Shown here: one piece after another, positions 1,445 through 49,721 of the stretch | Position numbering within the stretch: position 1 is the first letter of the stretch | Layout: the number at the start of each line of letters is the position of its first letter | Assembly (NCBI GenBank): GCA_002868945.1 | Contig: PKTX01000017.1 | Coordinates: forward strand, 1-53,729 | DNA: 53,729 nt | Direction: 5' to 3' | Source: Desulfobulbaceae bacterium | GTDB lineage: Bacteria > Desulfobacterota > Desulfobulbia > Desulfobulbales > SURF-16 | Notes under the pieces: generated by a model | Database searches by the model: none | Told to the model about the DNA's origin: nothing | What the model saw: only the letters and a program-made list of their open reading frames with translations | Made by a program: the position numbers and the translations under genes

Positions 1445-1465
1445 AATATCCGTGAAAAGAATAAA

Positions 1466-1658
1466 GGCCATCTTGAATAATTGTTCTTTCCCGCGATTTT
1501 TTCGGCGCTACGAAAATAAAAATCCTCACATATACTCGATATGCTGCACCCCAAGGGCACTTCTTTCAGGGCGCGCTTTTTATTTTCTATGCTTCTTAAA
1601 CTCGAACAGGTAAGCGAGCGAAGCGAGACTCCGAAATATCCAATTATTCAAGATACCC
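1466..1658. repeat. family A interspersed repeat, full copy A1
   Basis: A non-coding element bounded by ATCTTGAATAATTG on the left and its mirror CAATTATTCAAGAT on the right, with GG and CC extending the symmetry outward. The interior holds the motifs CGGCGCTACGAAAATAAAAA, CTGCACCCCAAGGGCACTTC and GCGAGACTCCGAAATAT. These recur in the copies at 19614, 23342 and 49531 and, decayed, at 6310. No transposase reading frame is present, so it is MITE-like. It fills most of the 320-bp gap between sppA and rpsA and overlaps the possible upstream start of sppA. Confidence 0.85.
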
Positions 1659-1710
1659 TAAAGACTATTTTTAACAGACTCGTAAAAAGTTAATTTTGCC
1701 GATGGCTAAG

Positions 1711-6309: not shown

Positions 6310-6526
6310 GGCCATCTCGAATAAGTGCTGTTTCGGAGTCTCGCAGGCTCGCTTGCCTGCCCCCGGTTTTTTCGTGCTACGAAAATGAAAATGCGCAGAG
6401 ATACTCGATGTGCGGCCTGCCTCGTAAGAGGTAAGGGAACCTGTGACACTTCGAATGCCCTTGGGGTGCTTTTTATTTTCTCCGCTTCTCAAACGTGAAG
6501 ACAATATCTACTTATTCCAGATACCC
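6310..6526. repeat. degenerate family A repeat, copy A2
   Basis: It begins GGCCATCTCGAATAAGTG and ends CTTATTCCAGATACC, diverged forms of the family A termini. The interior shares GCTACGAAAATGAAAAT, CCCTTGGGGTGC and the GGAGTCTCGCAGGCTCGCTTGCC segment in rearranged order. It fills most of the gap 6143-6532 and ends six bases before the proposed pcnB start. The remaining part, 6143-6309, shows no gene I recognise. Confidence 0.7.
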
Positions 6527-6532
6527 TGAAAT

Positions 6533-10347: not shown

Positions 10348-10660
10348 AAGGAGTTTTTTGCCAGGAGGGGGGCCCTGGATCAATGGCACCAGTTTGCATG
10401 ACAGACCCTGCAAGGAAGGCCGGTGAGTGCGCTGGTGCCGAAATCCCGGAGCCAGACCGGCAAGCCCATGGGATACAGGCTCAAATTTGATTTTAGCCTG
10501 CCCCCACTCTTTCCCTGCGCCGATGCATATATCTCCAAAATAGGTAACAGTATCACACGATACCGAATATTTTCGCCAGTAGACCAGCTTACCTGTGATA
10601 TGATGTAAAGGCTGCCTCGGTCTGCCCACGAATAATCTCCAGCACCCTGGCAGCGGTTAC
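10348..10660. other. non-coding stretch downstream of bioF
   Basis: No reading frame with protein-like composition and no strong hairpin. It leads into the family B repeat at 10661. A promoter for the ATP-grasp operon could lie here or between 10901 and 10964. Confidence 0.4.
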
Positions 10661-10900
10661 CAGCCCGTTGAAAAAATACTGCGCTCGAAGGTCTCTCTTT
10701 GTTCGCTATCTGCTGAAGCGTCGTCAAAATTCGGCTTGAGCTAAGCGAGAGCGAGACTCCGAAATGCTCCTGAACCCCATGTAAACTGCACCCCAAGGAT
10801 ACTCGGAGTGTCGCAGGCTCCCTGACCTCCTGCGAACGCGCATTTTTCGCCGTATTTTTTTCTGGCCTCAGCGGCGCTCGCGCCCTTTTTCAACGGGCTG
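10661..10900. repeat. family B repeat, copy B1
   Basis: A 240-bp element bounded by CAGCCCGTTGAAAAA and TTTTTCAACGGGCTG, a perfect 15-bp terminal inverted repeat. The interior matches the copy at 38525-38930 in opposite orientation, apart from an insertion there. Shared inner blocks include GCTTGAGCTAAGCGAG, CTGCACCCCAAGG and CGAGACTCCGAAATG. Some blocks also occur in family A, so the families share modules. No protein is encoded. Confidence 0.85.
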
Positions 10901-10982
10901 TTACAGCCGCTGTGGTTATTTCTTTAGGGGTTGCCATGGGCTCAAGCAGGTAAAAAATAGTTCAGAAGGAGGATTGTTTAGC

Positions 10983-16193: not shown

Positions 16194-16354
16194 GGAGCCT
16201 GTCGGACTTAGACATTAATCTACTGCAAATTCGAAAAATCGGTCCATATTCCCATGGCTTTTCGTTAAATAGCTCTGCTATTCGCCTCAAATCCATGTAA
16301 ATCTGGCCTTGATTTTTCGAATTTTCGCTACGATTCTCTAAGTCCGACAGGCTC
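16194..16354. repeat. family C palindromic-ended repeat, copy C1
   Basis: A 161-bp element with perfect 18-bp termini GAGCCTGTCGGACTTAGA and TCTAAGTCCGACAGGCTC. A second inner symmetry pairs AATTCGAAAAATC with GATTTTTCGAATT. It is nearly identical to 38564-38723, in the same orientation. Flanks read CCTAG before and TAG after, which may be a 3-bp target duplication. It encodes no transposase. On the minus strand both copies keep a short open frame starting MDLRRIAELFNEKPWEYG, which I treat as incidental. The rest of gap 16051-16454 has no recognisable gene. Confidence 0.9.
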
Positions 16355-19613: not shown

Positions 19614-19722
19614 GGCCATCTTGAATAATTGCTTTTTTGTCCGATTATTTTCTATGCTTCTCAAACTCGAACAGGTACGCGAGCCTGCGAGACTCCGAAA
19701 AATCTAATAATTCAAGATACCC
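19614..19722. repeat. family A repeat, short copy A3
   Basis: 109 bp from GGCCATCTTGAATAATTG to TAATAATTCAAGATACCC. It keeps the ends plus the CTATGCTTCTCAAACTCGAAC and GCGAGACTCCGAAAAAT modules, but lacks the middle CGGCGCTACG...GGGCGCG block of the longer copies, so it is an internal deletion derivative. It lies 23 bp upstream of the ettA start. Confidence 0.85.
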
Positions 19723-19860
19723 AATACTATAAAAATGTGGACCGTCTGTAACGGGACGCGGCTTTTTTCAGGGGGCCATTCTAGCCGTCAATGGCCGGAA
19801 AAGGTATGATTTTTTGCAGAAAATGGCAGATGATCGCCGCAGCGGAGGAGGGCCGGGCTG

Positions 19861-23084: not shown

Positions 23085-23341
23085 GCCGCTCCCCCGGACC
23101 GCGCTTTTTTCCGCCGCCTGCTTTGGCGATGATGCCGGAAGAATCGTTTTGGAACGGCTGGAGGGCTGCCTTGCCAGCCGCTTGCCGGCGGCATAAATAG
23201 AGGTGACTTGCTTTTCCTCATCCTGCCGTCGTACACTATGTCCAACCAAGTGGTGGTCAGGTTGTTGGACAAGAACGGACATCTGTTATCGTTTCGAGCA
23301 ATTGTCACGCATCTGGCGCCGCCATTTCCGTCATTTTTTAG

Positions 23342-23508
23342 GTCATCTTGAATAATTGCTTTTTTGTCCGATTTTTTCGGCGCTACGAAAATAAAAATCC
23401 TCACATTTGACTGATATGCTGCACCCCAAGGGCACTTCTTTCAGGGCGCGGTTTTTATTTTCTATGCTTCTCGAACTCGAACAAGAAATCTAATAATTCA
23501 AGATACCC
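23342..23508. repeat. family A repeat, full copy A4
   Basis: 167 bp from GGTCATCTTGAATAATTG to TAATAATTCAAGATACCC. The interior keeps the CGGCGCTACGAAAATAAAAA, GATATGCTGCACCCCAAGGG and TATTTTCTATGCTTCTCGAA modules. It occupies part of the 460-bp gap before the small Cys-rich gene. The rest of that gap (23085-23341) shows no gene. Confidence 0.85.
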
Positions 23509-23544
23509 TTTAGTCAATATATCCATTTAGCAAAGGTGAAAATT

Positions 23545-38466: not shown

Positions 38467-38524
38467 GCAGGGGCGTCGCCCCTGCGCCGCCGATCGCTGC
38501 TTTTCTTATCTCTCCCTCCCTTGA

Positions 38525-38930
38525 CAGCCCCTTGAAAAACGTAGCGAGCGTAGCTGCGGCGAGGAGCCTGTCGGACTTAGACATAAATCTACTGCAAATT
38601 CGAAAAATCGGTCCATATTCCCATGGCTTTTCGTTAAATAGCTCTGCTATTCGCCTCAAATCCATGTAAATCTGGCCTTGATTTTTCGAATTTTCGCTAC
38701 GATTCTCTAAGTCCGACAGGCTCCCAGGAAAAGTGAGGCGAAAAATGCGCGCCCGGAGGAGGTAAGGGAGCCTGCGACACTCCGAGTACCCTTGGGGTGC
38801 AGTTTGCATGGGGTTTAGGAGCATTTCGGAGTCTCGCTCCGCTCGCTTAGCTCAAGCCGAATTTTGACGACGCATCAGTAGATAGCGAACGAAGAGAGAC
38901 CTTCGAGCGCAGTAGTTTTTCAACGGGCTG
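38525..38930. repeat. family B repeat, copy B2, interrupted by family C
   Basis: The ends are CAGCCCCTTGAAAAA and TTTTTCAACGGGCTG. The inside, read in reverse, matches copy B1 (10661-10900) block for block, except that a complete family C element (38564-38723) interrupts it near the left end. In B1 the corresponding position reads straight through. It occupies most of the gap 38467-38941. Confidence 0.88.
38564..38723. repeat. family C repeat, copy C2, nested in family B
   Basis: 160 bp, nearly identical to copy C1 at 16194-16354, with the same 18-bp inverted ends. Its insertion into a family B repeat shows that family C has moved as a unit. No target duplication is obvious at this site. Confidence 0.9.
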
Positions 38931-38941
38931 TTGAGCGCTTC

Positions 38942-42200: not shown

Positions 42201-42253
42201 GAGGGCACTATGCTCTCGACGGTGAGGGTTATCTTGGCGCCGTGCTGTTCGGG

Positions 42254-42420
42254 CCGATTTTTTCGGTACTTCGTAAATACCTAGTGCCTGTCCAGAGAGA
42301 GGTCATTTGGGAGTCTCGCAGGCTCGCTTACCTGTTCGAAATCAAGGACTGCGAAAGAAATAAGCACGCCCTGAAAGAACTACCCTTGGGGTGCAGGCAT
42401 ATATGTGCCATGCCGAGCCT
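42254..42420. repeat. degenerate, end-less family A/B repeat
   Basis: A decayed copy in which GGGAGTCTCGCAGGCTCGC, CTGTTCGAAATC and CCCTTGGGGTGCAG modules occur without recognisable ATCTTGAATAATT ends. It precedes the gene remnant at 42430. Confidence 0.55.
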
Positions 42421-49516: not shown

Positions 49517-49530
49517 CAGAAAGGCAATAG

Positions 49531-49695
49531 ACCATCTTGAATAATTGCTGATTTGCCCATTTTTTTCGGCGCTACGAAAATAAAAATCCTCACATGTGCC
49601 CGATATGCTCCGATTTTTATTTTCTATGCTTCTCAAATGCGAACAGGTAAGCCAGCGGAGCGAGACTCCGAAATATCTAATTATTCAAGATATCC
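49531..49695. repeat. family A repeat, full copy A5
   Basis: 165 bp from ACCATCTTGAATAATTG to AATTATTCAAGATATCC, with the CGGCGCTACGAAAATAAAAA and TATTTTCTATGCTTCTCAAA modules, but the CTGCACCCCAAGGG block shortened. It lies between the kinase and the response regulator, 27 bp before the regulator's start. Confidence 0.85.
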
Positions 49696-49721
49696 TATAA
49701 TGTAAGCAGCTATTCAGCCTG

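Follow-up and report, generated by a model that had tools for sequence, protein, structure and literature searches.

The locus at 38525-38930 of the window (by which is meant the whole contig of 53,729 nucleotides from a Desulfobulbaceae bacterium) raises the question of how a complete family C repeat came to lie within a copy of repeat family B, and of what kind of element family C is. The original prediction described an inverted B copy (B2) split by a C element (C2), an uninterrupted B copy (B1) and a C copy standing alone (C1), and held that C moved after B was in place. Sequence comparison bore out this arrangement, and the positions given for all four elements proved correct to within a few bases (Table 1). 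Identity between B1 and B2 is 90.5% across 211 bp to one side of C and 80% across 40 bp to the other; the lone C1 matches the nested C2 at 99.4% across 162 bp (E 2e-80).

A family C element within a family B copy

Base-by-base alignment of B copies located the junctions and supported the predicted order of events. With C and one tetramer taken out of B2, the remaining sequence aligned across the junction with all 28 distinct B copies compared (29 B-holding loci, in which the L056 row repeats the L047 copy); the best match was 96.7% identical over 243 bp with one gap, and one copy, L054, crosses the junction by 5 bases only. C-free B copies have a single tetramer at the C site, which among the 25 copies readable by pattern is, in B orientation, CTAG in 9, CTTG in 8, CTGG in 5, CCAG in 2 and CTCG in 1. 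The tetramers that flank C2, CGAG on the left and CCAG on the right of the window strand, are no longer identical and fit a 4-bp target duplication altered by mutation. Since all 28 copies align across the junction, the C-free state is ancestral and C was gained by a B copy. That C was instead ancestral to B and was lost from B1 by deletion is scarcely credible, because every one of the distinct B copies aligns through the C site, giving this order no support, and because C has dispersed copies of its own. C may have entered B2 at its present locus, or entered a B copy elsewhere that then moved here; the alignments fit either course.

Table 1. Positions of the family B and family C features in the window.
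Feature	Position	Strand	Remarks
B1, uninterrupted family B	10660..10901	+	flanked by TA/TA
B1 terminal inverted repeats	10661-10675 and 10886-10900		TA outside
C1, lone family C	16195..16354	-	CTAG on the left; on the right, TAG after the last C
B2, family B copy interrupted by C	38524..38931	-	outer flanks TG/TG
B2 terminal inverted repeats	38525-38539 (1 mismatch) and 38916-38930		TG outside on both sides
C2 left flanking tetramer CGAG	38560..38563		presumed target duplication
C2, family C in B2	38564..38723	-	160 bp; the minus strand is the conserved-fold strand
C2 left terminal inverted repeat	38564..38581	+	GAGCCTGTCGGACTTAGA
C2 structured core	38583..38705	-	model R2, 124.8 bits
C2 right terminal inverted repeat	38706..38723	-	
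C2 right flanking tetramer CCAG	38724..38727		presumed target duplication

The genome to which the window belongs comprises 83 contigs and 3.71 Mb. The genome-wide count of C copies, proposed with the original prediction, gave 15 places that cover at least 156 of 161 bases, besides truncated, internally deleted (about 76 bp) and interrupted copies. Family C has the attributes of a MITE: it is short (160 bp), has 18-bp terminal inverted repeats with the end sequence GAGCCTGTCGGACTTAGA, occurs in many dispersed copies and carries no transposase gene, with no listed open reading frame of 100 amino acids or more overlapping C1. Target-site duplication is found as well, many copies having diverged flanks; of the genome's 14 own copies with both flanks available, 11 have CTAG on one side or both, and 6 of these have it on both. 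Family B ends in CAGCCCGTTGAAAAA, usually with TA outside, and this end occurs at 185 places in the genome with at most one mismatch; 29 of the 44 listed B pieces cover at least 237 of 247 bases, a lower bound, with 40 of 270 candidates scored. Two further C insertions lie elsewhere in B, one at C48:76763-76922 near the opposite B end, and one at C8:39246, where the contig ends within C and one side only is visible. Special targeting of B by C is not claimed on the strength of these three copies, as B has CTAG-like sites, and B copies may simply be harmless targets.

Several other features of these repeats were observed. Family B copies with identical ends come in stepped sizes of 65, 108, 132, 140, 168, 200, 217 and about 247 bp (L187-L196), as if shortened by internal deletions. 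A third element, D, with GTGTCTGTCCAGAAAT ends and 6-bp repeats (TAAATA or TATCTA, by eye; L068:1083-1247, L069:1062-1252, L080:562-755), is inserted in C at C64 and C62, at one common position of C, and in B at C51; its end has no exact match in the window. Minimal C derivatives have the two ends almost back to back (L070:80-125, L071:100-155), and single C ends without a partner occur beside gene ends (L064:1956-1975, L067:1203-1222), that in L064 apparently providing the stop codon of a glycosyltransferase-like frame, as read by eye. A further repeat family in the window (1465-1660, 19614-19732, 23340-23520 and 49530-49700, with pieces near 6333-6527 and 42227-42396) has ends like GG(T/C)CATCTTGAATAATTG ... 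TAATTATTCAAGATACCC, and some stretches of its interior (CTGCACCCCAAGGG..., GCGAGACTCCGAAAT) are common to family B, as if the elements exchanged internal modules. The first and last 99 bp of the contig (1-99 and 53631-53729) are exact inverted copies of each other, so a repeat probably marks the assembly break.

IS1182-type ends on a core shared between phyla

Judged by their ends, both B and C appear to be IS1182-type miniature elements. A scan for the C end over the contigs of named genomes returned at least 102 stretches, and among the matches listed C-type ends were found on a 1612-bp insertion sequence that Endozoicomonas ascidiicola has in more than one copy; its transposase reaches 352 bits with the NCBIfam IS1182 family (cut-off 270). 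Within the window's own phylum, genome G145 has an IS1182 gene (a 480-aa frame, above the NCBIfam cut-off) in an element of about 1.7 kb, with the 19-bp CTAG-plus-terminal-repeat sequence of the C-type end at both ends. Both of these genomes also contain the C core. In G009 and G031, IS1182-like genes that fall short of the family cut-off lie between B-type ends, and in the window's genome a 300-aa IS1182-like frame adjoins a B-type end at C37. In the named-genome scan, CTAG stands on both sides in 12 of 55 C-end pairs, and 3 more pairs have identical CTGG, CCAG or CTAA tetramers; these last are identical and non-palindromic, which argues for a duplication and not for a longer inverted end. 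Against the IS1182 assignment, identical flanking tetramers are thus found in just 15 of the 55 pairs, the remainder having differing tetramers and some of the pairs being due to chance. The 18-bp ends, CTAG-like flanks, dispersed copies, insertion into B and insertion sequences elsewhere with the same ends together point to an IS1182-type identity for C.

An earlier assignment to IS5/IS427, which we took the CTAG target to suggest, was replaced by IS1182 on the NCBIfam match. Genes matching PF01609 or PF13358 were set aside as transposase partners of C after scans of the window's genome: PF13358 had no match, and no C-type end lay in the regions fetched around the three matches of PF01609. 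The 83 contigs of this genome yielded no IS1182 gene with C-type ends; its two IS1182 matches, at C57:8657-9661 and at C37, are both below the cut-off and have no C-type ends in their loci, and a search with the Endozoicomonas IS1182 protein, run without a positive control, gave no match in the genome. The C core appears to be absent from the insertion sequences, with no match to the core-only model R2 in 36 loci (27 + 9) that include full-length copies. In Thiorhodococcus mannitoliphagus a frame that by eye looks DsrE-like lies between two C-type ends some 1.5 kb from each other (L103:3513-5015); it is possibly a passenger gene, or the ends belong to two separate elements.

The body of C recurs in isolates or metagenome-assembled genomes (MAGs) of Pseudomonadota, Geobacter, Nitrospirota and Verrucomicrobiota/Lentisphaerota. 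Relatives that match the whole element at 63-92% identity across 115 bp or more were found in Geobacter, Lamprocystis, Thiorhodococcus, Nitrospirales, Nitrospirae, Lentisphaeria, Verrucomicrobiaceae, Acidovorax radicis, a gammaproteobacterial MAG and two 'Proteobacteria' MAGs. Among 58 genomes of the window's kin, model R1 found C in 18, the window's own being one of them and some of these matches being weak (E near 1e-4). Among 395 genomes from the phylum, model R2 found it in at least 9, the window's own once more included, a lower bound with 9 candidates scored per genome. In 13 of 18 genomes chosen from the end scan there are 3-115 core matches each (none in the other five), counts that may include opposite-strand matches of one place: 115 in MAG JAHIUA, 64 in Thiorhodococcus mannitoliphagus DSM 18266, 45 in Methylococcaceae UBA2778, 23 in Endozoicomonas, 21 in Nitrospirales, 15 in Geobacter, 14 in Verrucomicrobiaceae, 4 in Acidovorax radicis N35, 3 in Lentisphaeria, and 25, 10, 8 and 8 in the remaining four. 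Several of the hosts are MAGs, for which a wrong bin could inflate the number of phyla, and the isolates Thiorhodococcus, Endozoicomonas and Acidovorax are all Pseudomonadota. The window C copy had no blastn match in the plasmid and phage collections. Searches against Rfam gave no match for the window at gathering scores, two weak matches far below those scores for C1 alone (E up to 5), and tRNA only for nine loci with C relatives. No description of family C was met in the titles and abstract openings of the open-licence PMC literature searched, and none of the terms looked for occurs in PMC2267715.

The same core is carried by C-type, GAGGCTGTCCGAGAATAG, GAGCCTGTCGGAGAATTAT and GGACTATCC ends. 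Endozoicomonas ascidiicola has three end types with the core, one of which (AGAAGCTGTTCATGATC) is unlike the others. On a core tree of about 125 positions, of limited resolution and with two sequences unassigned to an end type, GAGAATAG ends fall in two separated clades, and this split suggests that ends have been exchanged.

A conserved hairpin with wobble pairs on one strand

Comparison of aligned copies shows the body of C as a conserved predicted hairpin with internal loops, which covaries across lineages and has its wobble pairs on one strand. The predicted fold of the window C copy has an energy of -75.7 kcal/mol on the minus strand (z-score -12.6) and of -67.1 on the plus strand (z-score -10.4). 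In alignment A1 (13 elements, opposite strand), double changes occur in 27 of 53 pairs, with none of 500 shuffles having as many; in A4 (29 hand-picked elements, minus-type strand, sometimes two per genome) they occur in 45 of 59 pairs, again with 0 of 500 shuffles as high, 93.4% of cells are paired, and the covariation score is 0.483 vs 0.186 shuffled and at most 0.143 slid. Restricted to the core, the count of pairs with double changes is 38 of 43. The A4 structure was predicted on the favoured strand, and the opposite-strand model and strand-symmetric pairs serve as its checks; alignments A2, A3, A6 and A7 were fitted to models of this analysis, and the rows were chosen by hand throughout, one set taking 77 of the 102 end-scan loci plus the window. 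Unpaired stretches interrupt the stem as internal loops at matching places in distant hosts.

The strand preference was evaluated in several ways. Consensus energy is -69.1 kcal/mol on the favoured strand vs -29.2 on the other. In all 50 rows drawn from A2 (15 rows) and A3 (the first 35 of 70), one window copy (L197) being counted twice, the minus-type strand has the lower minimum free energy. It also does so in 28 forward rows of another, partly overlapping set of 34, in which the remaining 6 read the same places from the opposite strand. Controls show how such row counts are to be read: in family B one strand folds better in 20 of 26 rows (non-independent, from one genome and with one copy entered twice) at nearly equal consensus energies of -46.2 and -42.3, and in family D in 3 of 3 copies. 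As the B control is skewed too, a skewed row count alone proves little, and it is the tree-based count that carries the strand argument. On a tree of 36 cores (some genomes twice; 48 pairs picked on Watson-Crick support alone and thus strand-blind), 71 gains of G-U stand against 24 of A-C (p 1.5e-6 if changes are independent), the other changes being 70 to other mismatches and 135 to another Watson-Crick pair. By column, G-U is ahead in 27, A-C in 7 and the two are equal in 14 (p 0.0008); by copy, G-U exceeds A-C in 33 of 36, with 2 equal and 1 reversed. Under the opposite-strand structure, A-C cells outnumber G-T cells by 119 to 20 (counted over the first 52 of the 131 A2 rows, of which many come from a single MAG), which likewise places the wobble pairs on the minus-type strand. 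Mutation bias was considered as a cause of the wobble excess and was not seen among recent within-genome mutations in two genomes, where the counts were 14 vs 11; small as these numbers are, they argue against a mutational cause and for selection on lineages that keep spreading.

Such a pattern is hard to obtain if C is an ordinary palindromic MITE whose fold is a by-product of an inverted-repeat origin, kept by template switching with no selection on either strand. Stable stem-loop transcripts are typical of MITEs according to PMC10969869, correction of one arm by the other could alone yield double changes, and B, itself a MITE, shares the skew in row counts. Correction would, however, perfect the palindrome, yet the same internal loops persist in distant hosts, and it offers no reason for wobble pairs on one strand; the strand test thus disfavours this account, which we consider quite improbable. 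A strand-specific hairpin kept across several phyla with no recognisable gene indicates that the fold itself probably matters to the element, and selection on a single-stranded fold, whether RNA or single-stranded DNA, appears the best reading of the alignments.

One C strand might form a hairpin that is recognised as DNA during transposition, replication or transfer, in a manner comparable to attC sites or IS200/IS605 ends, and a motif resembling attC structured DNA is reported from a similar search in PMC8632094. Under RNA and DNA parameters alike, all 29 aligned copies fold better on the minus-type strand, so that the energies do not separate RNA from single-stranded DNA, and C copies occur in any orientation to genes: among 65 copies placed against neighbouring genes by crude longest-ORF calls, with no gene finder, 13 run along both genes and 18 against both, 21 lie between convergent and 10 between divergent genes, and 3 are undecided. 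CTAG-like flanks and IS1182-type ends, on the other hand, indicate a double-strand DDE transposase, and we know of no folded-strand step for such a transposase. Selection on the fold as DNA is accordingly rated unlikely, if well ahead of the by-product account, and a transcript is favoured as the selected form. A role within mRNAs would predict sense placement of C behind genes and was set aside on the same 65 copies, which have no sense bias; with orientation indifferent to genes, any effect should belong to the element itself.

Taken together, C is best explained, with a probability of roughly 70%, as a non-autonomous IS1182-ended element that is moved in trans and whose active copies are selected for a single-stranded fold, likely that of a transcript. 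An IS1182 transposase acting in trans would move C; active copies would be selected for the folded single strand, most likely a minus-strand transcript in window orientation; and the conserved internal loops may bind a protein, either the transposase or a host RNA-binding protein, which would help C to move or persist. The nested C2 would then be one ordinary landing of C on a CTAG-like site in B. The mobility of C is in this respect unexceptional, an IS1182-type MITE having apparently landed in another MITE, and the surprise is an element with no recognisable gene that seems to keep a strand-specific fold across phyla. A more far-reaching proposal, that C is a selfish noncoding RNA whose folded transcript, and no protein, is selected and which has spread between phyla through exchanged ends, carried by different IS1182-like transposases, is put forward tentatively, as less likely than not. 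Bacterial MITEs are usually seen as remnants of insertion sequences in which the ends alone have to be kept; a body conserved in structure across phyla, strand-specific wobble pairs and alternative ends suggest that some MITEs depend on a folded nucleic acid. With its 64 core matches, Thiorhodococcus mannitoliphagus DSM 18266 offers an abundant test object for the use of RNA by a non-autonomous transposon.

Family C among known repeats and mobile elements

ERIC, Correia/NEMIS and similar repeats are, as is C, short, palindromic and intergenic with foldable transcripts, and are confined to narrower host groups. C differs from these in its occurrence in several phyla and in its strand-specific covariation. 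In IS200-IS605 ends, and in attC sites with their integron setting and RYYYAAC end (a motif given in PMC8632094), it is a single strand in folded form that functions, one strand folding better than the other. C is distinguished from them by its CTAG-like flanks and IS1182-type ends. IS1182 insertion sequences and MITEs share the C-type ends and CTAG flanks, whereas the core was not found in the insertion sequences and in C is shared between phyla behind several end types.

A further similar motif is MRSC-65-2, a mobile/repeat sequence candidate with a UYCCGG repeat, in a category that has 250 entries in Table 1 of its paper (PMC11109978). As described there, MRSC-65-2 resembles C: it forms one long stem that covaries, frequently reaches dozens of copies in a genome and has hosts in diverse phyla; it is sometimes near a transposase gene, and whether it acts as RNA or DNA is left open, as for C. 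In 25 of 29 C copies its UYCCGG repeat is found on neither strand. C may itself be one of the 250 mobile/repeat entries.
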